40,650 nucleotides of DNA, taken from Gammaproteobacteria bacterium. GTDB taxonomy: Bacteria > Pseudomonadota > Gammaproteobacteria > Arenicellales > Poriferihabitantaceae. The position numbers and the translations under genes were made by a program. The stretch spans positions 1 to 40,650 of the forward strand of contig JAPPQJ010000021.1 in assembly GCA_028817015.1 (NCBI GenBank), written 5' to 3'. The notes under the pieces are model-generated. The model was given only the letters and a program-made list of their open reading frames with translations, had not been told where the DNA came from and searched no databases. Positions 3,098 to 33,154 of the stretch are shown one piece after another. How positions within the stretch are numbered: position 1 is the stretch's first letter; the number at the start of each line of letters is the position of its first letter.

Positions 3098-3126
3098 TTG
3101 AGTCTGTATGCCTGGCGGTATAGAAT
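3098..3126 (+). promoter_or_regulatory. promoter of the dctP-paa operon
   Basis: TTGAGT, a 17-bp spacer and TAGAAT (5 of 6 matches to TATAAT) lie in the short gap after dusA. The predicted start near 3133 gives a leader of about 36 nt before dctP. It is the clearest promoter for the whole 14-kb catabolic run downstream. Confidence 0.55.
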
Positions 3127-3168
3127 GCCGGGCATCGTCAATATCAGATGACCAGAGGAGTCAAACAA

Positions 3169-4176
3169 ATGAAATCATTGTATCGATTCGCGTTGCTGGC
3201 CGGCTCGCTGTGCGTCAGCGGCACGGTGTTTGCCGTGGACATGACCGTCGGCACCTGGCTCAACCCCAAGCATCCGCAAAACGCCGTGGTGCTGAAAACC
3301 TGGGGCGAGTGGATCGACATCGCCACCGAAGGCCGGGTGCAGTTGCAACTCAAATACCACCAGGGGCATCCCAAGGGCGTTTTCGGCGATGTCGAGGACG
3401 GCAATTACGATGCCGGGTGGTCGTTTCACGGCTACCTGCCGGGGAAATTCAAACTGACCAGGATGGCCGAGTTGCCGCTGTTAGGCGCCGAGGCCGAGGC
3501 GGCGTCGCTGGCATACTGGCGCGTTCACCGGAAGTATTTGGCCAGGGCCAACGAGCACCGGGGCATGGTGCTCGCCGGGTTGTTTCTGCACGGCCCGGGG
3601 CAGATCATGCTGCGCGAGCCGGTCGACTCGCTGGACGACATGAGGAACAAGAAAATCCGCATCGGCGGCGGCGTGCAGACCCAGATCGCCGAGTCGCTGG
3701 GTGTCAAAGGCATCTCCGCCCCCGGCTCCAAAGTTTATGAAATTCTTTCGCAAGGCGTCGCCGACGGCGTGTTCATGCCGGTCGGTGAGCAGAACACCAT
3801 GCGCCTGTATGAGGTAACCCGTTTCATCTACAAGGCGCCGGCGGGCATGTATTTGGGCAGTTTCGGCATCTTCATCAACCCCGATTTTCTGAAAAAGGTC
3901 GGCGCCAAGGACGCCGAAGCCATCATGGAGGTGTCGGGCGAGAGTCTGTCGCTGCTGGCCGGGCGCGCCTGGGGCGAGAACGATAACATCGGCATCACCA
4001 AAGCCAGGCAGGCCGGCGTGCAAATCGTCGACTGGTCGGATGCCGATGTGGAGCGCTTCACCGCCCTGACCGGCGACATCGAGCGCGACTGGCTTGAATC
4101 GGTTGCGGACCGCCCGGTGGATGCGGCCGGGGCATTGCGCGAATTTCGCCAGGTGGCGCGCGCCTATCCGTTTTAG
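3169..4176 (+). CDS. dctP: TRAP transporter periplasmic solute-binding protein (DctP type)
   Basis: Periplasmic receptor of a tripartite ATP-independent periplasmic transporter; it captures a carboxylate and delivers it to the DctQ/DctM membrane pair. It begins with a typical signal peptide (MKSLYRFALLAGSLCVSGTVFA) followed by the DctP-family fold, with segments DDMRNKKIRIGGG and VYEILSQGVADGVF. The ATG at 3169 is chosen over the track start at 3148 because AGAGGAG lies just upstream and the signal peptide starts cleanly there. Mature length is about 312 aa, normal for the family. The next genes are paaB and then dctQ/dctM, so the ligand is probably phenylacetate or a related aromatic acid (inference). 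Ligand specificity cannot be read from the sequence. Confidence 0.88.
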   Translation: MKSLYRFALLAGSLCVSGTVFAVDMTVGTWLNPKHPQNAVVLKTWGEWIDIATEGRVQLQLKYHQGHPKGVFGDVEDGNYDAGWSFHGYLPGKFKLTRMAELPLLGAEAEAASLAYWRVHRKYLARANEHRGMVLAGLFLHGPGQIMLREPVDSLDDMRNKKIRIGGGVQTQIAESLGVKGISAPGSKVYEILSQGVADGVFMPVGEQNTMRLYEVTRFIYKAPAGMYLGSFGIFINPDFLKKVGAKDAEAIMEVSGESLSLLAGRAWGENDNIGITKARQAGVQIVDWSDADVERFTALTGDIERDWLESVADRPVDAAGALREFRQVARAYPF

Positions 4177-4186
4177 TTTTTTTTTT
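4177..4186 (+). other. ten-T homopolymer immediately after dctP
   Basis: An uninterrupted run of ten Ts follows the dctP stop codon directly. It is preceded by the self-complementary GGCGCGCGCC 18 bp upstream. It could act as a partial terminator or polarity site lowering expression of paaB onward, or be a slippage-prone tract. A proper stem-loop directly abutting the T run is not obvious. Confidence 0.3.
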
Positions 4187-4213
4187 CCACCCTGGCCCGT
4201 TGACGGGGGCGTC

Positions 4214-4495
4214 ATGAACGACACGGTGTTATACGAGGTGTTTGTGCGCTCCCATCACGCCGCCGGCCATCAGCATGTCGGCAGCCTGCGGGCCACCGGC
4301 CCCGAAGAGGCTCTGCTGCATGCGCGGGATTTATACACCCGGCGCAATGAAGGAGAGAGTTTGTGGGTGGTGCGCGCCGATGCGGTCACGGCCAGCGAGC
4401 CGGGCCAGCGCCACTCGCTGTTTAAGCCGGCGGCCGGCAAAGGCTACCGCCACCCGACCGCCTTTCCGCTTCACCCGGGCGTGAAAAACATGTAG
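4214..4495 (+). CDS. paaB: 1,2-phenylacetyl-CoA epoxidase subunit PaaB
   Basis: Small structural subunit of the PaaABC(D)E multicomponent epoxidase, which epoxidises the ring of phenylacetyl-CoA in the aerobic hybrid phenylacetate pathway. The 93-aa product matches the family along its length: LYEVFVRS, HVGSL, ARDLYTRRNEG, SLWVV and YRHPTAFPL. The ATG at 4214 is chosen by alignment; the track ORF is extended upstream through dctP's tail. The gene sits between dctP and dctQ, away from paaC, and paaA is not in the window. In canonical operons paaB follows paaA directly, so this is an unusual layout. Confidence 0.92.
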   Translation: MNDTVLYEVFVRSHHAAGHQHVGSLRATGPEEALLHARDLYTRRNEGESLWVVRADAVTASEPGQRHSLFKPAAGKGYRHPTAFPLHPGVKNM

Positions 4496-4496
4496 C

Positions 4497-4536
4497 GCCT
4501 GGCGCCGGCCGCGCGCGAGGCTGCGGGCGGCCAGGC
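4497..4536 (+). other. intercistronic hairpin between paaB and dctQ
   Basis: GCCTGGC (4497-4503) and GCCAGGC (4530-4536) are perfect inverted arms enclosing further GC-rich partly complementary sequence. The predicted hairpin ends just before the GGAGG of dctQ. No T tract follows, so it is more likely an mRNA stability or expression-balancing element than a terminator. This is inference from sequence only. Confidence 0.35.
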
Positions 4537-4551
4537 CAGCGGAGGTGTCAT

Positions 4552-5025
4552 TTGCGTCACCGGATCAGCCAGTATCTGTCGGTCATCTCGGCCTTCCTGT
4601 TGTTCATTTTGATGTTGATCACGGTGGTCGATGTGATCGGCCGCTATGGCTTTAATCAGCCGCTGGCCGGCTCCAGTGAGTTGACCGAAATTTGCCTGAG
4701 TCTGATCATCTTCGCGGCGTTCCCGCTGTTGTGCCGCAACAACGACCACATCGCCGTCGATTTGCTCGAAAACCGCTTCAGCGCGCGCTTCAAGCGCATC
4801 CGCAACCGCGTCGTTCAAGCGGTGGTCAGCGTCTGCCTGCTGACCCTGGGTTACGGGCTTTTCCTGCTGGGGCTCCGCGCCCGCCGGGATGCGCTGGTTA
4901 CCGAAATTCTGGAAATGCCGAACGATGTGTTTTTGTTCCTGATGGCGTTTTTACTGCTGCTGTCGGGGGCCATGAGCGTTTGCATTCTGTTCACCGCTGA
5001 TGCCGCCGGGGACGGTCAGCCATGA
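4552..5025 (+). CDS. dctQ: TRAP transporter small permease (DctQ type)
   Basis: Four-helix inner-membrane subunit that pairs with the large DctM permease. The 157-aa sequence has hydrophobic helices at roughly residues 8-28, 44-60, 84-105 and 125-150, with the family feature RYGFNQPLAGSSELTE after helix 1. It starts with TTG at 4552, supported by a strong GGAGG about 7 bp upstream. It overlaps dctM by the four bases ATGA, showing translational coupling. It lies after paaB, so transporter and catabolic subunits are co-transcribed. Confidence 0.9.
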   Translation: MRHRISQYLSVISAFLLFILMLITVVDVIGRYGFNQPLAGSSELTEICLSLIIFAAFPLLCRNNDHIAVDLLENRFSARFKRIRNRVVQAVVSVCLLTLGYGLFLLGLRARRDALVTEILEMPNDVFLFLMAFLLLLSGAMSVCILFTADAAGDGQP

Positions 5026-6347
5026 CCGTCGCGCTGTTCGGTTTTGCCGCGCTGTTGTTGCTGATTTTGCTGAGGATACCGCTGTTGGCGGCCATGGGTG
5101 TAGTCGGTTTTTTCGGTTTCGCGGTGACCCAGGGGCTGTTGACCGAAACCGGCTGGTGGGATTTCAACTGGAAGGGAGTGGTCTATCTAATCGCCAGAAC
5201 CGCGGTGTCGGTCACCCAGTCCTACGAATTGTCGGTCATCCCGCTGTTTCTGCTCATGGGGGATTTTGTCGCCCAGGGCGGGTTGTCGAAAGATTTATAC
5301 CGGCTGGCCTATGTTTATTTCGGATACAAGCGCGGCGGCCTGGCGGTGGCCACCATCGTCGCCTGCGGCGGTTTTTCCTCGGTGTGCGGTTCATCGCTGG
5401 CGACCACCGCGACCATGGGCCGCATCGCCTATCCCGAAATGAAACGCCTCAACTACGGCACCAGCCTGGCCAGTGCGTCCATCTCCGCCGGCAGCACGCT
5501 GGGCATTCTCATCCCGCCGAGCGTCATCCTGATCATCTACGGCCTGCTCACCGAGCAAAGCATTCGCGAATTGTTCGCCGCCGGCTTTCTGCCCGGGCTG
5601 CTCGGCATCGTATTGTATGTGGTGGCGATCAAACTGGTGGTGTGGCGCCGCCCGGACATCGCCCCGGCGGGCGGCCGCGAGGACCGGCGGGCCAAATGGG
5701 GCGCGCTGAAAAACGTCTACCATACCGTCCTGTTGTTCACGGTCATCATGGGCGGCATCTATTTCGGCGTGTTCACGCCCACCGAAGCGGCCGGCATCGG
5801 CGCCTTCGGCGGATTTCTGATCGGTTTGCTGCGCCGAACTCTCACCCCCGCCGTGTTGATCGACATCCTCAAGGGCGCTGCCGTCACTTCCGTGAAATTG
5901 TTTTCGCTGCTCATCGGCGCGCTGATTTTTTCCCGTTTCATCAGCAACACCGGCGTGGTGGAGGAGTTGACCGCGCTCATCGCATCGTGGTCGGTCAACC
6001 CCTATTTCGTCATCATCCTGATCATGCTGGTGTATATCGTGCTGGGCATGATTCTGGAGAGTTTGTCGATGATCCTGCTGACCGTGCCGCTGTTTTTCCC
6101 GATAGTCTCGCAACTGGGGTTCGATTTGGTGTGGTTCGGCATTTTGGTGGTGGTGATCACCGAAATCAGTTTAATCACGCCGCCGGTCGGCTTGAATGTG
6201 TTCGTGCTGTCGAGCATCATCCGCGACTTGACCCCCAGGCAGATTTTCCGCGGCGTGCTGCCGTTCTGGTGCGCCGACCTGGTTCGCCTGCTGCTGCTGA
6301 TTTTGTTTCCGGCGGTCAGTTTGTGGCTGCCCCGTTTGTTGTATTGA
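5022..6347 (+). CDS. dctM: TRAP transporter large permease (DctM type)
   Basis: Large inner-membrane subunit thought to form the Na+-coupled translocation path of TRAP transporters. The 441-aa protein is hydrophobic throughout, with about 12 membrane segments. Recognisable family stretches include IPLFLLMGDFVAQGGL, CGGFSSVCGSSLATTATMG, ASISAGSTLGILIPPSVILIIYG, GVFTPTEAAGIGAF and ITPPVGLNVFV. The start overlaps the dctQ stop. Only 26 bp separate it from paaC, so the transporter is embedded within the paa operon. Substrate is inferred from context only. Confidence 0.92.
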   Translation: MTVALFGFAALLLLILLRIPLLAAMGVVGFFGFAVTQGLLTETGWWDFNWKGVVYLIARTAVSVTQSYELSVIPLFLLMGDFVAQGGLSKDLYRLAYVYFGYKRGGLAVATIVACGGFSSVCGSSLATTATMGRIAYPEMKRLNYGTSLASASISAGSTLGILIPPSVILIIYGLLTEQSIRELFAAGFLPGLLGIVLYVVAIKLVVWRRPDIAPAGGREDRRAKWGALKNVYHTVLLFTVIMGGIYFGVFTPTEAAGIGAFGGFLIGLLRRTLTPAVLIDILKGAAVTSVKLFSLLIGALIFSRFISNTGVVEELTALIASWSVNPYFVIILIMLVYIVLGMILESLSMILLTVPLFFPIVSQLGFDLVWFGILVVVITEISLITPPVGLNVFVLSSIIRDLTPRQIFRGVLPFWCADLVRLLLLILFPAVSLWLPRLLY

Positions 6348-6373
6348 AACCTTAACCCGGCAACGAGGGCGCG

Positions 6374-7150
6374 ATGACATTTCACCCCGGCGACTTGAAC
6401 GCGCAGGAAAAACTTCTCCTGCACCTGGCCGACAACGGTTTAATCATGAACCACCGCCTGTGCCAGTGGTGCGCGCATGCGCCGGAACTGGAACTGGAGA
6501 TGGGGCTGGCCAATATCGGTTTGGACCACCTGGGGCAGGCGCGGTTGTGGCTGGGCCGCCTGATTGAAACCCTGGCCGCGCGCGGAGTTGAAACCAGCGA
6601 GGATGAGTTGGCGTATTTTCGCGATGACGATCAATACTTCAACCTTTTGCTGGTGGAGCAGCCCAACGACGATTTCGCCATGACCGTCGGCAAGTTGTTT
6701 TTGTATGATGCGTTCCACCATCTGGCATTGAACCAGTTGTCGCGGGCCGGCGACCCGCCGGTCGCCGCCATCGCCGGGAAAGCGGCGGTTGAGGTCGGTT
6801 ATCATCTGCGGTTTTCCACGCACTGGATGAAGGTGATGGTCGGCGGCACCGAATACAGCGCCGGGCGAATGCGGGTCGCGCTGGACTATCTCTGGCCGTT
6901 GTGCGGGGAATTTTTCACTCCCGCCGACTATGAAAAAACCGTCAAGCAACCGCGAGTCGCCTTTGCGCAACTGAAGGATGCGTGGCTGCAAAGCGTGCTG
7001 CCCGTGGTGCGGCCCCTGGGGTTGGCGCTTGGCGAGGCGCTGGCGTTTCACCATCCTTCCGGCAAACACAACCGCCACAGCGAACACCTGGGTTATGTTC
7101 TCGCCGAAATGCAGGTGCTGGCGCGCAAACACGCGGGGGCCGCATGGTAG
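6374..7150 (+). CDS. paaC: 1,2-phenylacetyl-CoA epoxidase subunit PaaC
   Basis: Ferritin-like structural partner of the catalytic PaaA subunit. PaaC lacks a working di-iron centre and stabilises the PaaA-PaaC core. The 258-aa sequence matches the family strongly (LANIGLDHLGQARLWLG, FNLLLVEQPNDDFAMTVGK, EVGYHLRFSTHWMK, YLWPLCGEFF). GAGGGC lies upstream of the ATG. It overlaps paaD by seven bases. With no PaaA in the window, its obligate partner must be encoded elsewhere or be missing. Confidence 0.93.
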   Translation: MTFHPGDLNAQEKLLLHLADNGLIMNHRLCQWCAHAPELELEMGLANIGLDHLGQARLWLGRLIETLAARGVETSEDELAYFRDDDQYFNLLLVEQPNDDFAMTVGKLFLYDAFHHLALNQLSRAGDPPVAAIAGKAAVEVGYHLRFSTHWMKVMVGGTEYSAGRMRVALDYLWPLCGEFFTPADYEKTVKQPRVAFAQLKDAWLQSVLPVVRPLGLALGEALAFHHPSGKHNRHSEHLGYVLAEMQVLARKHAGAAW

Positions 7151-7599
7151 CCGAAAACGCCGCCGGCACCGCGCAAATCAAGGCCATTCTCGGCAAGGTG
7201 CGCGACCCGGAATTGCCGATGATCTCCATCTGCGATTTAGGGATCGTGCGCCGCATCGAGGAGGGCGGCGGGCAGTATACGGTGGTGATCACCCCGACCT
7301 TCAGCGGCTGCCCGGCGATGACCATGATCGAGCAAAACATCGCTGCGGCGCTGGCCGAGGCGGGAGTGGAATCGTTTCGCATCGTCAAAGAACTGTCGCC
7401 GCCCTGGCAATCCACCGATGTCACCGAGGCGGGGCGCAAGTTGCTGATGGCAAACGGCATCGCCGTTGCCTGCGAAGGCGTGCGCTGTCCCCATTGTCAA
7501 AGCGACAACACCGAGACGGTCAGCGAATTCGGCGCCACCGCCTGCAAGCGGTTTGCAAGGTGCCGGTGTTGCCGGGAGCCGTTCGAGGTTTTCAAATGA
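7144..7599 (+). CDS. paaD: phenylacetate pathway Fe-S assembly protein PaaD (MIP18/DUF59 family)
   Basis: Accessory protein needed for epoxidase activity, thought to help mature the iron or Fe-S centres of the complex. Residues about 10-90 form a MIP18/DUF59 domain with KVRDPELPMISICDLG and TPTFSGCPAM. The C-terminus (about 110-151) is a zinc-ribbon-like module with CPHC and CRCC, ending PFEVFK, as in PaaD rather than general SufT proteins. The ATG at 7144 lies inside the end of paaC; the upstream part of the track ORF is a paaC shadow. It overlaps paaE by ATGA. Confidence 0.92.
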   Translation: MVAENAAGTAQIKAILGKVRDPELPMISICDLGIVRRIEEGGGQYTVVITPTFSGCPAMTMIEQNIAAALAEAGVESFRIVKELSPPWQSTDVTEAGRKLLMANGIAVACEGVRCPHCQSDNTETVSEFGATACKRFARCRCCREPFEVFK

Positions 7600-8708
7600 G
7601 CCCGCCGGCCGCGGCCAGGCGCGGGTTTTTCCCGGTGGCGATTCGCTCCATCGTCGCCGAAACCGGCGACTCCCGGGTGATCGAGTTGTCCCCGTTGCAA
7701 GACCAGGACCGGGGGCGCATCACCCACCGAAGCGGCCAGCATGTCTCGGTCAGGGTCACCGCAGGTGGGCGGGAAATCTATCGCACCTACTCGATCTGCG
7801 AGCCGTCGTCATCCGGGAAAATCGCCCTGGGCGTGCGGTTGCTGCCAAACGGCGTTTTTTCCGACTGGCTGCGCCGCTGCAAGGCGGGCGACCGGCTGGC
7901 GGTCAGTGGTGCGCAAGGGCGTTTCTACCTGCGTCCGCCCGAACATCCGCGCCAGCAGAGTTTGTTCATCGCCTCCGGCAGCGGCATCACCCCGGTGATC
8001 AGCATGCTGGAAGAATTCCTCGGCGCACACCCCGAGGCCGGCGCGCTGCTGCTGTATGCCAACCGCAACACCGCATCCACCATGTTTCTGGAGCGCCTGA
8101 TGCAGTTGAAGAACCGGTTCATGGCGCGTTTCACGCTGCACTTTTTCACCTCGCGGGAGCAGCAGGCCGTGGCCTGGCGCAACTCCCGCATAGACGCCGC
8201 CGCGCTGGGCGGATTGCAGGACAAGCGCCTGTTGCGGGTGCCGGATTTCCGGCATTTCTACTTGTGCGGCCCGCCGCCGATGATGGAGTCGTGCGGCCGA
8301 TTCCTGCGCGCCGGCGGCGTGGACGGCGCGCGCATCCACAGCGAACACTTCGCCCCGGCCCGCCGCCTCGACGCCTCCGACTCTCCCCAACCGCAGTCGG
8401 TGCGCGGCCCCGACCCGGCGGCCCGCATCGTGGCGCGCGTCAGCGTCATCTTGAACGGCACACGGCGCGAATTCAACTATTGCGACCGCGACCCGTCGGT
8501 GCTCGCGGCGGCGGCGCGCCAGCATATCGCCCTGCCTTTCGCCTGCGCCGGCGGCGTCTGCGGAACCTGCCGCTGCAAAATCCTGCAGGGCCGGGTGCTG
8601 ATGGAAAAAAACCACGCGCTGGAAGCGCAAGACATCGCCGACGGTTTCGTCCTGGCCTGCCAGTCCCGGCCGCAAGACGGCAAACTGTCGTTGTCGTTCG
8701 ATTATTGA
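7596..8708 (+). CDS. paaE: 1,2-phenylacetyl-CoA epoxidase reductase PaaE
   Basis: NADPH-dependent reductase that passes electrons through FAD and a plant-type [2Fe-2S] cluster to the epoxidase. The 370-aa domain order is a ferredoxin-reductase FAD domain (RTYSIC at about 63-68), an NAD(P) domain (SGSGITPV at about 127-134, YLCGPPPMM at 222-230) and a C-terminal [2Fe-2S] domain with cysteines near 317, 322, 325 and 355 (CAGGVCGTC and the later LAC). All four cluster ligands are present. The start overlaps paaD's stop. It is the only Rieske- or epoxidase-compatible reductase in the window. Confidence 0.93.
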   Translation: MSPPAAARRGFFPVAIRSIVAETGDSRVIELSPLQDQDRGRITHRSGQHVSVRVTAGGREIYRTYSICEPSSSGKIALGVRLLPNGVFSDWLRRCKAGDRLAVSGAQGRFYLRPPEHPRQQSLFIASGSGITPVISMLEEFLGAHPEAGALLLYANRNTASTMFLERLMQLKNRFMARFTLHFFTSREQQAVAWRNSRIDAAALGGLQDKRLLRVPDFRHFYLCGPPPMMESCGRFLRAGGVDGARIHSEHFAPARRLDASDSPQPQSVRGPDPAARIVARVSVILNGTRREFNYCDRDPSVLAAAARQHIALPFACAGGVCGTCRCKILQGRVLMEKNHALEAQDIADGFVLACQSRPQDGKLSLSFDY

Positions 8709-8769
8709 ACGGGCCGTTTGCGCGGAAGCGGTATTCGTGATATTTTGCCGGCCGCGTGGAGAGTGGATC

Positions 8770-9546
8770 ATGGACAACATCATTTTCAGCATCACAAACC
8801 GACTGGCGGTGATTACCCTGAACCGCCCCGAGTCGCTCAACAGTTTGAATGCCGACATGCTCGGTGAGTTGAACCGGGCGGTGCGAGAGGTGGCCGACTC
8901 GGACGCCCGCGCGCTGTTGATCAGCGCCAAAGGCCGGGGCTTTTGTTCCGGCCAGGATTTGTCCGACCCCGGCATCGACGCCCGGGCCGGCGGCGACTTG
9001 GGGCGAATGCTGGAGCAATACTACAACCCGCTGATGCGCGCCTTGTCGGCGCTGGACATCCCCGTGGTCAGCGCGGTGGGCGGGGTGGCGGCCGGCGCCG
9101 GAGTCAGCCTGGCATTGGCGGCCGACATCATGCTGATGCACCGGTCGGCGTCCCTGGTGCTGGCTTTCAGCCGCATCGGCCTGGTGCCGGACGCCGGCAG
9201 TTCGTGGTTGTTGAGCCGCGCCGTCGGCCTGCGGCGCGCCACCGCGCTGGCCCTGATGGGCGCGACCATCAGCAGCACGCAGGCCCTGGAGTGGGGGCTG
9301 GCCTGGGCGGTATATGAAGACGACTTCCACGACCAAACCGAAACAATCTGCGCCCGGCTGGCCGCTGCGCCGACCAGGGGGCTGGGATACACCAAGCGGG
9401 TGTTTGGCGGTGCGGCGGTCAACGACTTTGACCGGCAACTGGAGGTGGAAAAGGATTTTCAGCGCCTGGCCGGAAACAGCGCCGATTACCGCGAAGGGGT
9501 GGACGCTTTCTTCGCCGGCAGAAAACCCCAATTCACCGGCCAGTAA
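8770..9546 (+). CDS. paaG: ring-1,2-epoxyphenylacetyl-CoA isomerase PaaG
   Basis: Crotonase-fold enzyme that isomerises the ring epoxide to the seven-membered oxepin-CoA, and also acts as a delta3-delta2 enoyl-CoA isomerase later in the pathway. The 258-aa product has the crotonase oxyanion-hole segments GRGFCSGQDLSD and NGVAAGAG-like GGVAAGAG, plus GLVPDAGSSW with the catalytic Asp near residue 141. The C-terminus QRLAGNSADYREGVDAF is diagnostic of PaaG. The ATG at 8770 is preferred to the track start at 8737 because homology begins there. The paaE-paaG gap is about 60 bp. Confidence 0.92.
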   Translation: MDNIIFSITNRLAVITLNRPESLNSLNADMLGELNRAVREVADSDARALLISAKGRGFCSGQDLSDPGIDARAGGDLGRMLEQYYNPLMRALSALDIPVVSAVGGVAAGAGVSLALAADIMLMHRSASLVLAFSRIGLVPDAGSSWLLSRAVGLRRATALALMGATISSTQALEWGLAWAVYEDDFHDQTETICARLAAAPTRGLGYTKRVFGGAAVNDFDRQLEVEKDFQRLAGNSADYREGVDAFFAGRKPQFTGQ

Positions 9547-9559
9547 GGAAACCCAGGCC

Positions 9560-10042
9560 GTGGAGCGCCCGATTGAACAGCGCCAATGCGCTGCGCTGCG
9601 CGAACAGGATGACCGCCTGGCGTTGCGGTGCGTGGAAACCATGCTAAGCGAAGACCATTGCTCGGCGGGGCTCGGCATGGTGCTGGAGGGCGCGGGGGCC
9701 GGCTGGGCGAAGTTGCGCATGCCGGTAACCCGCAGCATGATCAACGGCTACAATGTCTGCCACGGCGGGTTGATCTTTGCGCTGGCGGACAGCACCTTTG
9801 CGTGCAGTTGCAACGGTTACAACCGGGTGACGGTGGCCAGCGGCTGCCAAATCGAATACCTGCGCCCGGCTCTCCTCGGCGATGTTCTAAGCGCCCACGG
9901 CAGCGAGCGCAAACGGGGGAAATGGACCGGCGTCTATGACATCGAAATCCGCAATCAGAAAAAGCAACTCGTCGCGTTGTTTCGCGGCAAATCCTTCACC
10001 ACTCAAAAACCCATCATCGAAAGGCGGGAGAAGCGGGGCTGA
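9560..10042 (+). CDS. paaI: hydroxyphenylacetyl-CoA thioesterase PaaI
   Basis: Hot-dog-fold acyl-CoA thioesterase that frees CoA from dead-end or hydroxylated phenylacetyl-CoA intermediates. In 160 aa the signature NGYNVCHGGLIFALADSTFA is present, with HGG near 68-70 and the probable catalytic Asp near 77. The GTG start at 9560 is chosen because TAAGGAAA lies about 9 bp upstream and just overlaps paaG's stop. With PaaK in the same operon, the cell can both form and cleave the CoA esters. Confidence 0.9.
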   Translation: MERPIEQRQCAALREQDDRLALRCVETMLSEDHCSAGLGMVLEGAGAGWAKLRMPVTRSMINGYNVCHGGLIFALADSTFACSCNGYNRVTVASGCQIEYLRPALLGDVLSAHGSERKRGKWTGVYDIEIRNQKKQLVALFRGKSFTTQKPIIERREKRG

Positions 10043-10082
10043 AGCGCTTTTTCCGCCGGACCGCGTTTTTCAGGAAAACCAC

Positions 10083-11363
10083 ATGCCGAACCTTGAACCC
10101 CTGGACAAAATCGAACGCGCCGGCGCCGATGAACTGCGCGATTTGCAGTTGCGGCGGATGCGGTGGAGTTTGCGGCATTGCTATGAGCGCATCGGTTTTT
10201 ACAAAAACCGCTTCGATGAATGCGGCGTGCATCCCGACGACCTGAAGGAGTTGAGCGATCTGGCCCGGTTTCCGTTCACCACCAAGCGGGATTTGCGCGA
10301 CGCCTATCCGTTTGGGATGTTCGCCAGGCCGCCTTCGGACATCGTGCGCGTTCATGCGTCGAGCGGCACCACCGGCAAGCCGACCATCGTCGGCTACACG
10401 CGCAAGGACATAGACGACTGGGCGCACTGCATGGCCCGCAGCATTCGCGCCGCCGGCGGCGACGCCCACAGCGTGGTGCATGTCGCCTACGGCTACGGAT
10501 TGTTCACCGGCGGCCTGGGCGCCCACTACGGCGCCGAGAAATTAGGCGCCATGGTGATCCCGGTATCCGGCGGTATGACCACCCGCCAGGCGCAACTCAT
10601 TCACGATTTGCGGCCCGACATCATCATGGTCACGCCGTCTTACTTTCTCAACATCGTTGACCAATACATGGCCCAGGGGTGGGACCCCCGGCAATGGTCG
10701 CTGCGGGTCGGCATTTTCGGCGCCGAGCCGTGGAGCGGCGCGATGCGCGATTCCATCCAGGCCGGCACCGCCCTCAAGGCGACCGACATCTACGGGCTGT
10801 CCGAAGTGATGGGGCCCGGCGTCGCCCAGGAGTGCCTGGAAACCCAGGACGGGCTGACCGTGTGGGAGGATTATTTCTACCCGGAAATCATCGACCCGGA
10901 AACGCAGCAGACCCTGCCCGACGGTTGCGAAGGCGAACTGGTGTTCACCACGCTGGCCAAGGAGGGCACGCCGCTGGTGCGCTACCGCACCCGGGACTTA
11001 ACCGCGCTGTTGCCCGGCACCGCCCGCACCATGCGCCGCATGATGCGCATCAAGGGGCGCAGCGACGACATGATGATCGTGCGCGGGGTCAACGTCTATC
11101 CGTCTCAAATCGAGGAACACATCCTGCAGATGCCGGAATTGTCGGCCACCTATCAACTGGAAATCGCCCGCCGGGGCCGCCTCGATGAATTGCTCATTCA
11201 TGTCGAGATGAATCAACCCGGCCAGCCTCACCAGCCGGCCGGGAAAACCCTGCAGCAGCGCATTAAAGACACCATCGGCATCAGCAGCCAAGCGGTGTTT
11301 CACGAGCCGGGGACGCTGCCCCGGTCGCAGGGCAAGGCGGTGCGCGTGAAGAGTCCGCAGTGA
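10083..11363 (+). CDS. paaK: phenylacetate-CoA ligase PaaK
   Basis: AMP-forming ligase that activates phenylacetate to phenylacetyl-CoA, the entry step of the pathway. In 426 aa the ANL-superfamily P-loop SSGTTGKPT is at about residues 93-101, followed by DIYGLSEVMGPGVAQEC, LVRYRTRD and the C-terminal-domain hinge region RSDDMMIVRGVNVYPSQIEE, as in PaaK proteins. The ATG at 10083 follows the end of paaI by 40 bp. A short glutamine/proline insert (QPGQPHQPAG) lies in the C-terminal domain. It is the last of the contiguous paa genes. Confidence 0.94.
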   Translation: MPNLEPLDKIERAGADELRDLQLRRMRWSLRHCYERIGFYKNRFDECGVHPDDLKELSDLARFPFTTKRDLRDAYPFGMFARPPSDIVRVHASSGTTGKPTIVGYTRKDIDDWAHCMARSIRAAGGDAHSVVHVAYGYGLFTGGLGAHYGAEKLGAMVIPVSGGMTTRQAQLIHDLRPDIIMVTPSYFLNIVDQYMAQGWDPRQWSLRVGIFGAEPWSGAMRDSIQAGTALKATDIYGLSEVMGPGVAQECLETQDGLTVWEDYFYPEIIDPETQQTLPDGCEGELVFTTLAKEGTPLVRYRTRDLTALLPGTARTMRRMMRIKGRSDDMMIVRGVNVYPSQIEEHILQMPELSATYQLEIARRGRLDELLIHVEMNQPGQPHQPAGKTLQQRIKDTIGISSQAVFHEPGTLPRSQGKAVRVKSPQ

Positions 11364-11475
11364 TGGTTGGCGCCGCATCGGTGCCGTCGAACCGGCGGTT
11401 TGTTGCGCCGCCGCCGGCCGGATTGCGCATTGAACCGGCCTTCTCAACCCACTTCATCGCCTGGCGAAAACCGAC

Positions 11476-12441
11476 ATGACTCAACCCGCAACCTTCGCCT
11501 CCACCGGCGATCTTGACCCGAAGCCGGTCACCTTTGCCGAACTGGGGCCGAAGGGCTCCGGCTGTTACGGTTTCACCGCCGAAGGCGACCCCAACTCCGG
11601 GGTCATCATCGGCGATGATTCGGTGATGGTGGTCGATGCCCAGGCGACTCCGGGGCTGGCCCGCAAAGTCATCGAGTGCATCCGCACGGTCACCGACAAG
11701 CCGGTCAGCCACATCGTGCTGACCCACTATCACGCCGTGCGGGTGCTGGGGGCGGGCGCTTATGGCGCATCGCAAATCATCATGAGCGACCGCGCGCGCG
11801 ATGATGTCGCTGAGCGCGGGCGGCAGGACTGGGATTCGGAATTCGGCAGATTCCCCCGCCTTTTCGAGGGGCACGAGGAGATCGCCGGGCTGACCTGGCC
11901 GAACGCCACCTTCAGCCGCTCGATGCGCGTGTATTTGGGCGGCCGGGAGGTGCAACTGCATCACCTCGGGCGCGGCCACACGGCCGGCGACATCGTCGTT
12001 TATGTGCCCGACAGCAAGGTCCTGTTTTCAGGCGACCTGGTCGAATATCGCTCCGCCTGCTATTGCGGCGACGCCCATTTGGCCGACTGGCCGGCGACCC
12101 TCGACAACCTGGTGCAATTTGATATTCAGGCGCTGGTTCCGGGGCGCGGCGACGCCTTGACCGATGCGGCGATGATTGCCGAGGGCGTGGCGTTGACGCG
12201 GGATTTTCTGTCCACACTGTATGATTCGGTGAAGTCCAGCGTGGCCGAAAAGCGCGGCTTGAAGGAGGCGTTCGACGCCTGCAACCAGGCCATGCGCCCC
12301 AAGTTCGGCGACTTCGCCATCTTTGAACATTGCCAGCCGTTCAATGTCGCCCGCGCATACGACGAGGCGCAGGGCCTGGAACACCCCCGCATCTGGACCG
12401 CGCAGCGCGACCTGGAAATGTGGGAGCAACTGAGCGACTGA
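11476..12441 (+). CDS. MBL-fold hydrolase-like protein with degenerate metal site, homogentisate cluster
   Basis: Metallo-beta-lactamase-fold protein of 321 aa; function unknown. The usual HxHxDH signature is replaced by THYHAVR: His84 and His86 remain, but the metal-2 Asp and His positions are Val88 and Arg89. The third site-1 ligand (GHTAGD, His168) and the bridging Asp (SGD, Asp187) are kept, while the last site-2 His is Arg224 in VPGRGD. It could therefore bind at most one metal in the normal way. From memory, MBL proteins of this type travel with an FAD monooxygenase, hmgA and DUF2783 in proteobacteria, as here. Its stop overlaps the possible start of the FAD gene. A 7-bp GC stem (CCGGCGG/CCGCCGG) lies in the 112-bp gap before it. 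A hydrolytic or lactonase role in aromatic catabolism is only a guess. Confidence 0.8.
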   Translation: MTQPATFASTGDLDPKPVTFAELGPKGSGCYGFTAEGDPNSGVIIGDDSVMVVDAQATPGLARKVIECIRTVTDKPVSHIVLTHYHAVRVLGAGAYGASQIIMSDRARDDVAERGRQDWDSEFGRFPRLFEGHEEIAGLTWPNATFSRSMRVYLGGREVQLHHLGRGHTAGDIVVYVPDSKVLFSGDLVEYRSACYCGDAHLADWPATLDNLVQFDIQALVPGRGDALTDAAMIAEGVALTRDFLSTLYDSVKSSVAEKRGLKEAFDACNQAMRPKFGDFAIFEHCQPFNVARAYDEAQGLEHPRIWTAQRDLEMWEQLSD

Positions 12442-14099
12442 TGGATGGGGGCCCGATGAACACCGCCTGCCCGCACTGGCGAGAGGTTGAAAAACTGCAG
12501 TTTGTGCATTCGTGCCACCGCGACTCCGAACAGTCGGTGGTCATCGCCGGCGCCGGCCCGATTGGGTTGACTTTGGCCATCGACCTGGCGCAGCGCGGGG
12601 TGCCAAGCGTGGTGCTGGAAAAGTCGGACCGTCTGTCGGACGGCTCGCGCGCGCTGTGCTGGTCGAGGCGCACGCTGGACATCTTCAACCGCCTCGGCAT
12701 CGCCGGGCCGATGCGCGAGACCGGCGTTCAATGGCAGGTGGGCCGCGTGTTCCACCGACAAGAGCAAATCTACAACCTGCGGCTGACCCCCGACACCTTT
12801 CCCGAAAACCCGTTTTTCGTCAATTTGCAGCAGCCGCTTTGCGAATACCTGCTGTTGCAGGCGTGCGCGCAATATCCCCAAATTGATTTGCGCTGGGCCA
12901 ACCGGTTGACCGGTGTGCGGGCGCATCCCGGCGGCGGCGTTGCCCTGACCGTGCGCTGCGACCGCGGAGAATACCGCATCGACACCGAATATTTAGCCGC
13001 CTGCGACGGGGCCAGATCCACGGTGCGGGAAAAACTCGGCCTGCGTTTTGCCGGCCGGCGGTTCAACGACCGTTTCCTAATCGCCGACATCGAGATGGCC
13101 GGCGATTTTCCGAACGAGCGCCGGTTCTGGTTTGAGCCGCCGTTTCACGACGGCCAATCGACGCTGTTGCACAAGCAGGCGCAAAACCTGTGGCGGGTTG
13201 ATTTTCAGTTGAACACCGGGCCCGGGGTGTCCAAAGCGCAACTGCGCCTGGACCGCGACCGGCGCTCGGTGCGCAAGCGCATTCGCGCCTTTTTGGGGCG
13301 CGATGATTTGGACTTTGAAATCGTCTGGTGCTCGGTCTACTTGTTCACCTGCCGGCGCATCGAGCGGTTCCGCCACGGCAACATTTTTTTCGCCGGCGAC
13401 AGCGCGCATTTAGTCTCGCCGTTTGGCGCGCGGGGCGGCAACGGCGGCATCCAGGACAGCGACAACCTCGGCTGGAAACTGGCCGAAGTCCTGCACGGCC
13501 ATGCCGCCGACCGGTTGCTGGACAGTTATGACGCCGAGCGCGTCGCCGCCAGCGATGAGGACATTCTGAACTCGTCGCGCACCACCGATTTCATGACCCC
13601 GAAGAGCGCCAGGTCCAAACGCATCCGCGACACCGTGCTGAAACTGGCGCGCTCCCACGACTTCGCCGTGCACATGGTCAACGCCGGGCGCATGAGCCGC
13701 CCTTTTTCCTACCGCCACCTGGGCCCGTTCAAGGATCATCCCAACGGCATCCGCGTCCGGGCCGGCGATGCGGGCCTCGACATTCCGCTCATTCACGCCC
13801 GCACCGGCGCGCGCAGTTATCTGCTCAGGCACATTCGCGACTACACCATGGTCGCGTATCAGCGCCCGGCGGTGGCGTGGCCGGGGCGCGCCGCAGCCTG
13901 CGATGTCGTTCATATCGGCGATGCCCGGCAGGGGGAAGGGGAATATCTCGACTCGCAGGGTTTGATGAAAAAGCATTATGTCGGCGACACGGGCGGCTAT
14001 GTGTTGTTTCGCCCCGACCAGCATATCCTGGGCGTGTGGCGCGACCGCGAACCGGATGCCGTCATCGCGGCGCTTGAACGGCAGCGCGGCGCGCGTTGA
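12441..14099 (+). CDS. FAD-dependent aromatic monooxygenase (PheA/TfdB/MhpA-like)
   Basis: Single-component flavoprotein hydroxylase of about 552 aa. It has the Rossmann FAD motif VVIAGAGPIGLTLAIDLAQRG near 33-53, the ACDGARSTVR segment and the second FAD motif FFAGDSAHLVSPFGARGGNGGIQD, typical of NAD(P)H-dependent phenol-type hydroxylases. The C-terminal thioredoxin-like domain of the family also appears to be present. Lying directly before hmgA, it probably hydroxylates an aromatic acid towards homogentisate, such as a hydroxyphenylacetate or hydroxybenzoate-type substrate (inference). The start is either ATG 12441, overlapping the previous stop as TGATG, or ATG 12456 behind a GGGGG tract. 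Exact substrate cannot be told from sequence. Confidence 0.85.
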   Translation: MDGGPMNTACPHWREVEKLQFVHSCHRDSEQSVVIAGAGPIGLTLAIDLAQRGVPSVVLEKSDRLSDGSRALCWSRRTLDIFNRLGIAGPMRETGVQWQVGRVFHRQEQIYNLRLTPDTFPENPFFVNLQQPLCEYLLLQACAQYPQIDLRWANRLTGVRAHPGGGVALTVRCDRGEYRIDTEYLAACDGARSTVREKLGLRFAGRRFNDRFLIADIEMAGDFPNERRFWFEPPFHDGQSTLLHKQAQNLWRVDFQLNTGPGVSKAQLRLDRDRRSVRKRIRAFLGRDDLDFEIVWCSVYLFTCRRIERFRHGNIFFAGDSAHLVSPFGARGGNGGIQDSDNLGWKLAEVLHGHAADRLLDSYDAERVAASDEDILNSSRTTDFMTPKSARSKRIRDTVLKLARSHDFAVHMVNAGRMSRPFSYRHLGPFKDHPNGIRVRAGDAGLDIPLIHARTGARSYLLRHIRDYTMVAYQRPAVAWPGRAAACDVVHIGDARQGEGEYLDSQGLMKKHYVGDTGGYVLFRPDQHILGVWRDREPDAVIAALERQRGAR

Positions 14100-14105
14100 A
14101 CGCGG

Positions 14106-15428
14106 ATGCCTGAACTGCAATACATGACCGGTTTCGGCAACACCTTTGAAACCGAGGCGTTGCCGAACGCCCTGCCGCGGGGCCGCAACTCGCCGCAGCG
14201 GTGCAATTACGGCCTGTATGCGGAGCAGTTGAGCGGCACCGCGTTTACCATGCCAAAGCACGCCAACGCGCGCTCGTGGCTGTATCGAATGCTGCCTTCG
14301 GTCAAACATGCCGGCGCCTTTCGCGCCGAATCCCCCGGCCACATTCGCACCGCCCCCTGCCGCGAGCCGCATTCGCTGCCCATCGGCGCGCAGCGCTGGA
14401 GCGCCACGCCGCCGCCGGATCATCCGGCCAACTTTATGGCGGGGATGCTGACCATGACCACGGCCGGCGACAGCGACGCGCACACCGGCATGGCGGCGCA
14501 TGTGTATGCCTGCAATACATCCATGACCGACGACTATTTCTTCAACCGGGACGGCGAATATCTCATCGTGCCGGAGCAAGGCGGGGTCCGTTTCGACACC
14601 GAGTTCGGCATACTGGAAGCGCATCCGGGCGAAATCGTCATCATCCCGCGCGGCGTGGTTTTCCGCGTCGCATTGCCAGAGGGGAGCGCCAGAGGCTATG
14701 TGTGCGAAAACTACGGCGCCCGCTTTGAACTGCCCGAGCGCGGGCCAATCGGCGCCAACGGCCTGGCCAGCCCGCGTGATTTCCAATACCCGGTGGCCGC
14801 TTATGAAGAAGGCCGGGGGCGCGGCCGCCTGTGGGCCAAATGGGGCGGCGATTTATACTCCTGCGAGATCGACCACTCGCCTCTGGATGTGGTGGCCTGG
14901 CACGGAAACTATGCGCCGTGCAAGTATGACTTGCGCGCTTTTTCGCCGCTCGGGGCGGTCGCCTTCGACCACCCCGACCCGTCTGTTTTTACCGTGCTGA
15001 CTTCGCCGTCATCAACGCCGGGCGTCGGCAATGTCGATTTTGTCATCTTTCCCGAGCGATGGATGGTCGCCGAAGACACCTTCCGCCCGCCGTGGTTTCA
15101 CCGCAACATCATGTCCGAATTCATGGGTTTGATCGACGGGGTATACGACGCCAAACCGCGCGGCTTTCACCCGGGGGCGATGAGTCTGCACAACTCCATG
15201 CTGCCGCACGGCCCCGACGCCGATGCGTTTGAAGCGGCCAGCCGCGCCCGGTTGAAACCGGTCAAGCTGGAAAACACCCTGGCGTTCATGTTCGAGAGCA
15301 GCCTGCCGCAGCGCGTCACCCGGTATGCGGCCGAGAGTCCGCAACGCCAGGCGGACTACCGCGACGGCTGGAGGCCCCTCAAAAAAACGTTTCACCAACA
15401 ACCACCCGATGAAACTGGCAACGCTTAA
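14106..15428 (+). CDS. hmgA: homogentisate 1,2-dioxygenase
   Basis: Non-haem Fe(II) enzyme that opens the homogentisate ring to maleylacetoacetate. The 440-aa length is typical. The N-terminal [15 protein letters not shown] and the cupin region [18 protein letters not shown] are diagnostic. Iron ligands correspond to His332, Glu338 and His368 (MLPHGPD). It follows the FAD monooxygenase by 6 bp and overlaps fahA by 20 bp. With fahA and maiA it completes conversion of homogentisate to fumarate and acetoacetate. Confidence 0.96.
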
Positions 15429-16386
15429 AAACGACTGCAGAGACGGCCGGCTGGTCGTGGTCAACCGCGACCTCAGCCGTTTTGCCGAGGCCCCCGCCGA
15501 CCTGCCGACTCTGCAAGCCGCGCTCGATGACTGGAGCCGCGCCCGCCATTCGCTGGCCGCGGTTTACCGCGCCCTGCAATCGGGTGACATCGACGGGCGG
15601 GCGATGGCCATGGAGCAACTGGGTGCGCCCCTGCCGCGCGCCTACCAGTGGCTGGACGGTTCCGCGTATCTCAATCATGTTGAGCTGGTTCGCAAAGCGC
15701 GCGGCGCGCAGATGCCGTCCACATTTTTGACCGACCCGCTGATGTATCAGGGCGGCTCCGACATCCTGCTGGGCTGCCGGGACCCCATCGCCGCCGGCAG
15801 CGAGCGGCACGGCATCGACCTGGAAGCGGAAATTTGCGTGGTGACCGACGATGTGCCGGCGGCGTGCCCGCCGCAACAGGCTGAGCGGCGCATCCAACTG
15901 ATCGGGATGTTGAATGACATCTCGCTGCGCAACCTCATCCCGGCGGAACTGGCCAAGGGTTTCGGCTTTGTGCACGGCAAGCCGCCGACCGCTTTTGCGC
16001 CGGTCCTGGTGACGCCCGATGAATTGGGGGGCGCCTGGAAGGACGCCAAAATTCACCTGCCCCTGCGCACCTGGATCAACGGTCAATGGCTGGGGCATCC
16101 CGACTGCGCGACCGACATGCAGTTCAACTTCGCGGAACTCATCGCCCACGCCGCGAAAACGCGGCCCCTCGGCGCCGGCACGATCATCGGCTCCGGCACC
16201 GTTTCCAACCGCGATGCGTCGCGCGGGTTCTGCTGTCTGGCCGAGGCCCGCATGATCGAAACCATCCGGCACGGCAAACCGCGCACCGGGTTTCTTCGAT
16301 TCGGCGACCGCGTGAAAATCGACATGACCGACGCGCGCGGCAACAGTCTTTTCGGCAGCATCGAGCAAACGGTGGTGAAACGGTGA
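15409..16386 (+). CDS. fahA: fumarylacetoacetase (fumarylacetoacetate hydrolase family)
   Basis: Hydrolyses fumarylacetoacetate to fumarate and acetoacetate. The 325-aa protein has the FAH-domain segments [39 protein letters not shown] and GSGTVSN, including the acidic metal ligands expected of the family. Length fits the shorter bacterial form (about 330 aa) rather than the 420-aa mammalian type. It starts 20 bp inside hmgA and ends overlapping maiA by GTGA. Other FAH-family acylpyruvases share the fold, but the hmgA/maiA neighbours support this call. Confidence 0.9.
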
Positions 16387-17018
16387 AACTCCACGGTTAT
16401 TGGAGGTCCTCGGCGACCTACCGGGTGCGCATCGCGCTGAACTTGAAAGCGGTGCGGTGTGAGTTGGCGCCCGTCAACCTGCTTTCCGAAGACGACAAAC
16501 AGCGCTATGGCGACAAGAATCCCACGGCGCTGGTGCCCACGCTGGAGTTGAGCGGCGGCGCCTGCATTCGCCAGTCCATGGCCATCCTTGATTATCTGGA
16601 GCGCGAATACCCCGAGCCCGCGCTTATCCCGGCGGATTCAACCCGGCGGGCCGCGGTGCTGGCGTTTGCCTGCGACATCGCCATGGAGGTTCATCCGCTC
16701 AACAACCTGCGCGTGTTGCGGCGCCTTAAGGATCGGCACGGTTTTTCCGAAGAGGGAGCGGTCGAATGGATGCACCACTGGATGCACGCTTCTTTTGTGA
16801 ACCTGGAGAAAATGGCGGACGCTTCGGGGCGTTATTGTTTCGGCGATGCGCCGACCCTGGCCGATGTGTTCTTAATCCCCCAGATGTATAACGCCGCGCG
16901 CTGGGAACTGGATGTGTCCGCCTACCCCAAACTCGTGCGCATCAACGACCACGCCACCCGGCAAAGCGCGTTCAGCAAAGCCCACCCCAGCCGGCAAGCG
17001 GACGCAGTCGGCGCATGA
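16383..17018 (+). CDS. maiA: maleylacetoacetate isomerase (zeta-class GST)
   Basis: Glutathione-dependent cis-trans isomerase converting maleylacetoacetate to fumarylacetoacetate. In 211 aa it begins [21 protein letters not shown], the zeta-GST active-site motif with the catalytic Ser-Ser near residues 9-10. This is followed by the GSH-binding ALVPTLE and QSMAILDYLE segments and an all-helical C-terminal domain with GDAPTLADVFLIPQ. The start is GTG at 16383, overlapping fahA's stop. The glutathione it needs is made via gshA at the other end of this region. Confidence 0.93.
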   Translation: MKLHGYWRSSATYRVRIALNLKAVRCELAPVNLLSEDDKQRYGDKNPTALVPTLELSGGACIRQSMAILDYLEREYPEPALIPADSTRRAAVLAFACDIAMEVHPLNNLRVLRRLKDRHGFSEEGAVEWMHHWMHASFVNLEKMADASGRYCFGDAPTLADVFLIPQMYNAARWELDVSAYPKLVRINDHATRQSAFSKAHPSRQADAVGA

Positions 17019-17218
17019 AGCGGATGAGCCTGGCGAACAACTTTGACGACGCCGATGCGTTCTACGAGCGCCTGGTGGCCGTTCACGAATCGCTCGACGA
17101 CGAGCAGTCGGATCAGTTCAATCTGTCGCTGATTTTGATGTTGGCCAATCACATCGGCGATGCGGCGACGCTGGCCGATTTAATGGACAAAGCCGAACAG
17201 TCGGCATGCAACCGGTGA
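17015..17218 (+). CDS. DUF2783 small protein, homogentisate cluster
   Basis: A 67-aa acidic, helical protein (NNFDDADAFYERLVAVHESL, then DEQSDQFNLSLILMLANHIGD) that resembles the DUF2783 family as I remember it. Function is unknown. Its ATG overlaps maiA's stop (ATGA), so it is the translationally coupled last gene of the run. From memory, DUF2783 genes recur next to FAD-dependent aromatic monooxygenases and MBL proteins, which suggests an accessory or regulatory subunit role (inference). An ATG at 17024 or nearby could also serve as start. Confidence 0.75.
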   Translation: MKRMSLANNFDDADAFYERLVAVHESLDDEQSDQFNLSLILMLANHIGDAATLADLMDKAEQSACNR

Positions 17219-28246: not shown

Positions 28247-30007
28247 TCAGCCGGCGGCTTTAATCTCCAGCAAATACATCACCGTTACCTGTTCATCGGC
28301 GCCGAAGGTGAAGTGATAGGCGTCCGACAACTCCTCGACCCGCTGGATTTGTTCGAGGTGGCGGTGGAACACCGGGTTGAATTGATACAGGTTGAAATCC
28401 GCCACGCGCGCGGTGTAGCCGTGTTGTTCGAGGAGTTTTTCGGTGCGGTGGGCGCCAAGGATGGAGATTTGCATCACATAGGCGAGGCCGCCGGGTTCCA
28501 GGTAGTGGGGCAGTTGCGAGATGAGGTGGTCGAGCAGGTTGCGGCCCCAGTAATCGACATCGCGGTGGCCGCTGTATTGCCCGCGCGGGTCGGTCGGCAT
28601 CTGGTATAGGCTGGCCACGACCAGGTCGAACTTGTGCGCCGGCGTGAACGAATACAAATCTTCGGCGACCCCGGTGATCTTGTCGGCGACGCCGTTGCGA
28701 AAGGCGTTGGTCAGGGTGTTGTCGATGGCCGCCTGCTGGATGTCCACGGCGGTTACTTCGGTGGCGCCGTTCAACGCCAACTGAATGGCCAGGATGCCGA
28801 CGCCACAGCCGATGTCCAGGCAGCGCTTGCCCTCGCCGACCGTGCCGTTGAACAGGTATTTCCAAATCAGGTAACTGCCCTGGGTGGGCATGAACACGCC
28901 GGGGTCGACCACGATGGCGGGCAGCGGCAGCGGAAACAGCGGCCGCCCGGTGGCGTCTCGCCAGCGGTTGGTTAAGGCCTCGGGCGGCTCCCGGTCCGGC
29001 CCGGACTCCGAATCCCTCACATCCCGGCGCGCCCGCCCCCGGCCCCGCGGCATGTCCGCCACGCGCGCGCTCAGCAGGCCGATTTCCTCCGGCCCCACGC
29101 CGCAACAGCCGCCGATGATGTGCGCGCCCTCGGCGCGCCACGCCAGGGCCTGTTCGACGAATGCCTCGGGGCCGGTGTGGGGGTCGAACTTCCAGCCCGA
29201 CTCGACATAACGGCCGACATTGGGATACACGCCAAGCGGCAGGTCGGTGAAATCGCGCAGCCACGGCAGCGTGCCGCCGACCCGTTGCATCGGCAGGCAG
29301 TTGATCAGCAACGCCTCGGCTCCGGCCTTTTCCAGTTGCCGCGCCAGCCTGCCGAAGCGGTCGCCTTCCGGCCCGCCCCACAATTGTCCGTGAATGCCGC
29401 ACAGCCCCTGGCGGCAGCGCCGGAAACTGACCCACACCGGCCAGCCGCGCTCGATGAGTTTCTCGATGCTCGGCAGGGTTAGATTGTCGCCGATCATGGA
29501 CAGCGTCTCGAACAGCACCAGGTCCGGCGGGTCGTGCTTAAACAACCGCAGCAGCAGATCGACGGTGGTCGCCTGCGCTTCGCTTTCTATATCCCCGCCG
29601 ATGCTGAACGCGACCGCCACCCGGCCCTGTTTGCCGGCCTGCGCAATCGCCCGGCGCGGCAGTTCAATGGCGGTTCGCGCCATGTCCATCCAGTGCGCCG
29701 GGTGCCCCCGGTCGGTGTGGTGGCGGCCGGTATACGACGGCGCTTCCAGAATCGAATAGGTGTTGGTGGTTAGAATGTCGGCGCCGGCGTCCAGGTAGGA
29801 GCGATGCACATCGAGCACCGCCGCCGGCGAATCGTGCAGCGCGTCGAATCCCCAGTGCGCGTCATCGCTCAGGTGAAAGCCGCCGGCGCCGAGGCGCTGC
29901 AATTCGGTGGCGATGGCGCCGTCCAAAATCACGCACTGATCCTCGGCAATGCGCCGGCGGATGCGGGCGATGGCGGAGTCGGGCCGGGCCGGCGAATCGC
30001 GGCTCAT
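28247..30007 (-). CDS. fusion: homocysteine S-methyltransferase + class I SAM methyltransferase
   Basis: A 586-aa two-domain protein. Residues about 15-320 form a homocysteine S-methyltransferase (BHMT/MmuM-type) barrel: ILDGAIATELQRLG, LTTNTY, and the zinc ligands Cys237 (LLINCLP) and Cys301/Cys302 (IIGGCCGVGPEEI). After an Arg/Asp-rich linker of about 30-50 residues, a Rossmann methyltransferase follows with motif I LDIGCGVGILAIQLA near 397-411 and VTAVDIQQAAIDNT. Domain 1 should move a methyl group from a betaine- or S-methylmethionine-like donor to homocysteine; domain 2 should use SAM on an unknown acceptor. ATG 30007 is preferred over TTG 30013. Its nearness to betaine-type genes supports a demethylation role (inference). 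Both halves look intact. Confidence 0.85.
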   Translation of the reverse strand: MSRDSPARPDSAIARIRRRIAEDQCVILDGAIATELQRLGAGGFHLSDDAHWGFDALHDSPAAVLDVHRSYLDAGADILTTNTYSILEAPSYTGRHHTDRGHPAHWMDMARTAIELPRRAIAQAGKQGRVAVAFSIGGDIESEAQATTVDLLLRLFKHDPPDLVLFETLSMIGDNLTLPSIEKLIERGWPVWVSFRRCRQGLCGIHGQLWGGPEGDRFGRLARQLEKAGAEALLINCLPMQRVGGTLPWLRDFTDLPLGVYPNVGRYVESGWKFDPHTGPEAFVEQALAWRAEGAHIIGGCCGVGPEEIGLLSARVADMPRGRGRARRDVRDSESGPDREPPEALTNRWRDATGRPLFPLPLPAIVVDPGVFMPTQGSYLIWKYLFNGTVGEGKRCLDIGCGVGILAIQLALNGATEVTAVDIQQAAIDNTLTNAFRNGVADKITGVAEDLYSFTPAHKFDLVVASLYQMPTDPRGQYSGHRDVDYWGRNLLDHLISQLPHYLEPGGLAYVMQISILGAHRTEKLLEQHGYTARVADFNLYQFNPVFHRHLEQIQRVEELSDAYHFTFGADEQVTVMYLLEIKAAG

Positions 30008-33148: not shown

Positions 33149-33154
33149 GCGCGC

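Follow-up and report, generated by a model that had tools for sequence, protein, structure and literature searches.

What does a phenylacetyl-CoA epoxidase gene set do when the genes of a tripartite ATP-independent periplasmic (TRAP) transporter are interleaved with it and paaA is missing? This question is raised by a 40,650-nucleotide window (C175:1-40650; contig JAPPQJ010000021.1), the whole stretch of DNA analysed here, from a draft gammaproteobacterial genome of the Poriferihabitantaceae (G000; 2.52 Mb, 220 contigs, 93% complete). Gene identities assigned by profile hidden Markov models (HMMs) confirm the order dctP-paaB-dctQ-dctM-paaC-paaD-paaE at 3169-8708, as proposed in a preceding sequence-only reading, and the window does lack paaA. 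That reading placed the end of the run too early, at 8708; co-directional genes continue to 17218 with paaG, paaI, paaK, a metallo-β-lactamase (MBL)-fold hydrolase, an MhaA-like hydroxylase, hmgA, fahA, maiA and an MhaB-like DUF2783 gene. The run at 3169-17218 is best interpreted, with a probability of roughly 0.85, as one arylacetate catabolic unit that would combine TRAP import with PaaA supplied from a separate locus; we infer both the ligand and the co-transcription from sequence. In this unit, DctPQM would take up phenylacetate, and probably also hydroxyphenylacetates, PaaK would form phenylacetyl-CoA, and the epoxidase would be assembled from PaaB, PaaC, PaaD and PaaE of the run together with PaaA from the other contig, while PaaG and PaaI would act on its products.

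The missing paaA is a relocated gene and not a lost subunit. Searching the rest of the genome with the PaaA HMM gave one TIGR02156 match (C214:9322-10188; 501 bits, cut-off 280), which is flanked by a major facilitator superfamily transporter gene on a contig without any other paa gene. The same split is found in a second species of the genus (G002), with paaA on C52, paaC on C86 and no further paa gene near paaA. The residues Glu49, Lys68, Glu72 and Asp126, named as the PaaA active site (PMC4498308), are unchanged relative to E. coli PaaA, as are further conserved carboxylate and histidine positions. The genome therefore encodes a PaaA with intact di-iron and lysine-bridge residues, alongside PaaB, PaaC and PaaD proteins that score above their family cut-offs. 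Phylogenetic trees unite G000, G002 and a relative, the metagenome-assembled genome O_S4.2_bin.19 (G285), for PaaA (support 100/99), PaaC (100/100) and DctP (100/99). Because the three trees agree, PaaBCDE most likely still works with PaaA from its separate locus, and the trans-supplied subunit is predicted to join the complex.

Of the two options left by the sequence-only reading, the first, that paaA lies elsewhere, is thus borne out by a single, intact and co-inherited gene. The second, that PaaBCDE now serve another oxygenase, is without support and highly improbable: it could draw on the absence of paaA from the window, on the divergence of PaaC and PaaE and on a BoxB encoded in the genome, but an intact PaaA is present. 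BoxB was rejected as the missing oxygenase: according to published data, it works without a PaaC-like partner and shows no cross-reaction with phenylacetyl-CoA (PMC4498308). A second, normal paaABCDE operon, which would have made the present one redundant, was not found, the draft genome containing a single paaA match and a single TIGR02157 match for paaB. A binning error was likewise dismissed: synteny between the run and G002 extends to rho, trxA and a helicase gene, and the C214 paaA has its closest counterpart in G002. The solitary paaA occupies different chromosomal neighbourhoods in the two species (L032:9253-10254 and L033:8715-9704), its neighbours on C52 of G002 being polA-like and glyoxalase-like by sequence; this difference suggests either repeated moves of the gene or rearranged surroundings. 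Paired use of PaaA and PaaC as genomic markers has been recommended (PMC13186573); in this genus the two can lie far apart.

All genes of the run are on the forward strand. The first, dctP (3169-4176; PF03480, 77 bits), encodes the TRAP solute-binding protein, a predicted arylacetate binder; its reading frame is open from 3148, and the ATG at 3169, preceded by the ribosome-binding site GAGGAG, is the more likely start. It is followed by paaB for the epoxidase bridging subunit (4214-4495; TIGR02157, 97.6 bits, cut-off 85.5), dctQ for the small permease (4552-5025; PF04290, 76 bits), dctM for the large permease (5022-6347; TIGR00786, 313 bits, cut-off 268) and paaC for the epoxidase structural subunit (6374-7150; TIGR02158, 208 bits, cut-off 133). 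The maturation factor gene paaD (7144-7599; TIGR02159, 140 bits, cut-off 108) encodes a FeS_assembly_P domain and a PaaD zinc ribbon, and paaE (7596-8708) encodes a divergent reductase with FAD, NAD and [2Fe-2S] (Fer2) domains, for which TIGR02160 is by far the best-scoring family, yet with 287 bits below the cut-off of 420.8. The stop/start overlaps noted in the sequence-only reading occur at paaC/paaD (7 nt) and, with 4 nt each, at dctQ/dctM and paaD/paaE; the remaining junctions between dctP and paaE are gaps of 26-56 nt. Over the entire run to 17218, the intergenic spacing is -20 to 61 nt with a single gap of 112 nt. The proposed single promoter is plausible: a sigma-70-like candidate (TTGAGT-17-TAGAAT) lies upstream of dctP at 3098-3126 on the forward strand and matches the consensus, by sequence only, at 9 of 12 positions, but the four such matches in the scanned region, with 3.2 expected, are not above chance. 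The layout is no assembly accident, because G002 has the identical order across the whole run.

The association of the importer with phenylacetate genes extends beyond this genus. Two scans, the first over named genomes and the second over 369 members of the class, retrieved DctP orthologues with 52-87% identity in G002, G285 (on the contig of locus L059), L060, G135, G324, G354 and G112; five of the seven have paa genes within 10 kb. The arrangements differ: paaAB-dctPQM-paaCDE-paaF-paaG in G285, dctPQM-paaJ-paaABCDE-paaZ in L060, paaZ-paaABCDE-dctPQM-paaG-paaI-paaK in G135, and paaZ/paaG-paaI-paaJ-paaK followed by dctPQM in G112. In G324, dctPQM precedes iorA/iorB-like genes, known relatives of which act on arylpyruvates. 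The gene dctP adjoins paaB also in the congener, which repeats the order, and in G285, and in other Gamma- and Alphaproteobacteria orthologous dctPQM genes lie inside paa clusters. Among more distant homologues, a Ruegeria plasmid carries dctPQM (DctP 40% identical) among paaK/paaI/paaG and paaZ, others adjoin ring-hydroxylating dioxygenases, and in G209 dctPQM is found with fahA/maiA and a phenylpyruvate decarboxylase gene.

The binding protein itself points in the same direction. The nearest sequences in the PDB (phmmer) are 4p56, TarP_Sse, 4n6d and a marine TRAP binding protein; the TarP_Sse entries are cinnamate and coumarate complexes, and the marine entry is titled "specific for aromatic acid ligands". 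The closest of them, 4p56 from B. bronchiseptica, has a ligand which we take to be mandelate; a literature search for a mandelate TRAP transporter gave nothing direct. With a solute-binding protein, a small and a large permease all encoded, a complete TRAP transporter is present, and it resembles the aromatic-acid transporters of the TarPQM type (R. palustris and others, PMC3610893; 7nra, 7nr2, 7nqg) in its DctP/Q/M set, in the aromatic binders among its nearest characterised relatives and in its aromatic-pathway context. It differs from them in being tied genetically to the aerobic phenylacetate pathway and in having 4p56 as closest solved relative. The prediction that the TRAP importer belongs to aromatic acid degradation is therefore upheld: by gene context the assignment as an arylacetate importer is well supported, and phenylacetate-like acids are the most likely substrates. 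A chance insertion of TRAP genes for an unrelated substrate, such as a C4-dicarboxylate, is very improbable; the DctP-family Pfam names are generic and would allow it, but the linkage to paa or other arylacetate genes recurs in different arrangements in two classes, the nearest solved relatives mostly bind aromatic acids, and the TIGR00787 dctP match (30.6 bits) is far below the cut-off of 175. No phenylacetate-specific TRAP importer was found in the literature searched. Phenylacetate uptake is poorly covered, and an importer found repeatedly among paa genes in two classes offers a testable annotation.

Several observations weigh against the interpretation as one arylacetate unit with PaaA from elsewhere. 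In this clade, PaaC and PaaE have diverged more strongly from other lineages than PaaA has (34-43% and 31-36% identity, versus 59-65% for PaaA), and with paaA outside the operon a balanced subunit supply needs a separate promoter. On the side of the importer, the title of 4n6d states no ligand, and no gene of aromatic metabolism is seen on the short contig that carries the G354 orthologue. AlphaFold modelled DctP poorly (pLDDT 52), so that pocket residues are unreadable, and fold matches of this low-confidence model add little beyond phmmer.

Compared with the E. coli-type paaABCDE system, all five epoxidase genes are present in the genome, paaG, paaI and paaK are nearby, and the PaaA active site is conserved; in contrast, TRAP genes are interleaved, paaA is on another contig, no paaZ was found, and PaaC and PaaE are divergent. 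The closest known layout is that of G285, in which paa genes likewise flank the TRAP genes, with MhaA-like and MBL genes close by, and which falls in the same clade of all three trees, but which retains paaA in the operon, encodes PaaZ and has no hmgA on that contig. The interleaved order is probably one outcome among several in the reshuffling of an older link between TRAP and paa genes. From a state as in G285 (paaA-paaB-dctPQM-paaC-paaD-paaE), paaA would have departed and paaB and dctP would have swapped places, a history that is reconstructed from few genomes. An amidase-like gene directly precedes paaA in G285 (L059:6952-8601), and its product perhaps yields an arylacetate from an amide.

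Downstream of paaE, the run continues with a paaG-like epoxide/oxepin isomerase gene (8770-9546; 306 bits, cut-off 345), paaI of the hydroxyphenylacetyl-CoA thioesterase family (9560-10042; TIGR02286, above cut-off) and the phenylacetate-CoA ligase gene paaK (10083-11363; TIGR02155, above cut-off). The MBL-fold hydrolase gene (11476-12441), a recurrent neighbour of MhaA-like genes elsewhere, precedes the gene for the MhaA-like FAD aromatic hydroxylase of the PRK08132 family (12441-14099). The homogentisate genes hmgA (homogentisate 1,2-dioxygenase, 14106-15428; TIGR01015, 640 bits), fahA/hmgB (fumarylacetoacetate hydrolase, 15409-16386) and maiA/hmgC (maleylacetoacetate isomerase, 16383-17018) follow, and the run closes with the gene for a 67-residue DUF2783 protein (17015-17218), a candidate MhaB-like coupling protein. 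In P. putida U and B. xenovorans LB400, MhaAB comprises a 3-hydroxyphenylacetate 6-hydroxylase and a 60-residue coupling protein encoded beside hmgABC (PMC3053370). The present set likewise groups an FAD hydroxylase of about 550 residues and a protein of about 60 residues, matched to MhaA and MhaB by description, with hmgA, fahA and maiA, but it is joined to the TRAP-paa run, its small gene follows maiA and not mhaA, and 4-hydroxyphenylpyruvate dioxygenase (HPPD) was not found. The MBL-hydroxylase-DUF2783-hmg set also occurs on Sulfitobacter and Sphingobium plasmids, with no paa genes in the stretch shown. The idea that the MBL gene encodes a lactonase made for this operon is weakened by its recurrence beside MhaA-like genes without paa genes.

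An epoxidase and a homogentisate module with neither PaaZ nor HPPD found raise the question of how the ring is opened, a side of the run that escaped the sequence-only reading. In G000 and G002, drafts like all genomes of the genus and 92-93% complete, the search for PaaZ yielded no more than generic aldehyde dehydrogenases, none scoring above 128 bits (cut-off 563). No match to the alternative oxepin-CoA hydrolase NF046063 exceeded its cut-off, and no stand-alone PaaZ-type MaoC hydratase was recognised in either genome; the sole MaoC match in each lies in a protein of about 300 residues beside a short-chain dehydrogenase/reductase, unlike PaaZ, and was rejected as the ring hydrolase. Neither PaaZ nor a recognised alternative for the canonical route was thus found in the two genomes. 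HPPD gave no match in either, the same search being positive in G011, yet both contain hmgA. At this level of completeness the absence of PaaZ and HPPD is suggestive but short of proof. Either an unrecognised ring hydrolase opens the ring, or the epoxide is diverted via 2-hydroxyphenylacetate to homogentisate; both possibilities are compatible with the proposed unit and differ only after the epoxidase.

The first possibility, for which the odds are about even, is that two lines run in parallel behind a shared importer. Phenylacetate would pass through PaaK, PaaA-E, PaaG, an unrecognised oxepin-CoA hydrolase and PaaF/PaaH/PaaJ, and 3-hydroxyphenylacetate would be converted by the MhaAB-like proteins to homogentisate for HmgA-FahA-MaiA. 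PaaG retains PDAG, the motif expected of such an isomerase, and PaaH and PaaJ are present in G000 and G002. The Sulfitobacter and Sphingobium plasmids show that the MBL-MhaA-DUF2783-hmg module can stand alone, MhaAB of P. putida U has been described as specific for 3-hydroxyphenylacetate (PMC3053370), and an unusual crotonase-type oxepin-CoA hydrolase was earlier found by genetics (PMC9007349). Against parallel lines stand the missing ring hydrolases and the position of paaH and paaJ in G000 beside boxB and a benzoate-CoA ligase gene, where they may serve benzoate. On that contig (C19; L083:191-4692, 5053-11280), genes for an ABC transporter of the branched-chain type and the ligase gene come after boxB-paaH-paaJ; this is a benzoate Box operon whose PaaH and PaaJ could be shared with the phenylacetate pathway.

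The second possibility, tentative and rather unlikely, is that the 1,2-epoxide formed by PaaA-E rearomatises to 2-hydroxyphenylacetyl-CoA, from which 2-hydroxyphenylacetate would be freed by PaaI, or by CoA loss and the MBL hydrolase. The MhaA-like enzyme would then hydroxylate it para to the hydroxyl group, and HmgA-FahA-MaiA would convert the resulting homogentisate to fumarate and acetoacetate, so that PaaZ is not needed. Every gene required except paaA lies in one run, neither PaaZ-type hydrolases nor HPPD were found, and without HPPD homogentisate needs another source. Furthermore, G001 and G003 of the genus jointly lack paaA, paaC, hmgA and HPPD, and the absence of PaaZ goes with the presence of hmgA in the run, PaaZ being encoded in G285 (816 bits), the nearest TRAP-interleaved relative, and also in L060 (691 bits). 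Spontaneous conversion of the epoxide to 2-hydroxyphenylacetyl-CoA with CoA loss has been described (PMC7497051). However, PaaI is reported to act narrowly on phenylacetyl-CoA (PMC4498308), the genomes are incomplete, and the MBL-Mha-Hmg module occurs without paa genes. Parallel lines are favoured on prior grounds, because PaaG looks intact, an argument for continued formation of oxepin-CoA, and because the specificity reported for MhaAB is for the 3-isomer. A literature search for a bacterial phenylacetate-to-homogentisate route gave nothing direct; if true, the diversion would represent a new aerobic PaaABCDE route without PaaZ, in which the "side product" 2-hydroxyphenylacetate is used and a dedicated TRAP importer is provided.

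The remainder of the window contains genes of other functions. A 586-residue protein encoded on the reverse strand (28247-30007) combines a homocysteine S-methyltransferase domain with a methyltransferase domain of the PrmA/MTS type. Also on the reverse strand (32039-34288), an enolase-superfamily protein, whose best NCBIfam match is cis-3-hydroxy-L-proline dehydratase (323 bits, cut-off 500), is encoded beside a Rieske oxygenase, and a role of these genes in betaine or hydroxyproline catabolism is possible. An 811-residue dimethylglycine dehydrogenase-like protein with DAO and GCV_T/GCV_T_C domains is encoded on the forward strand (36845-39280), near a formate-tetrahydrofolate ligase gene that runs off the end of the window.

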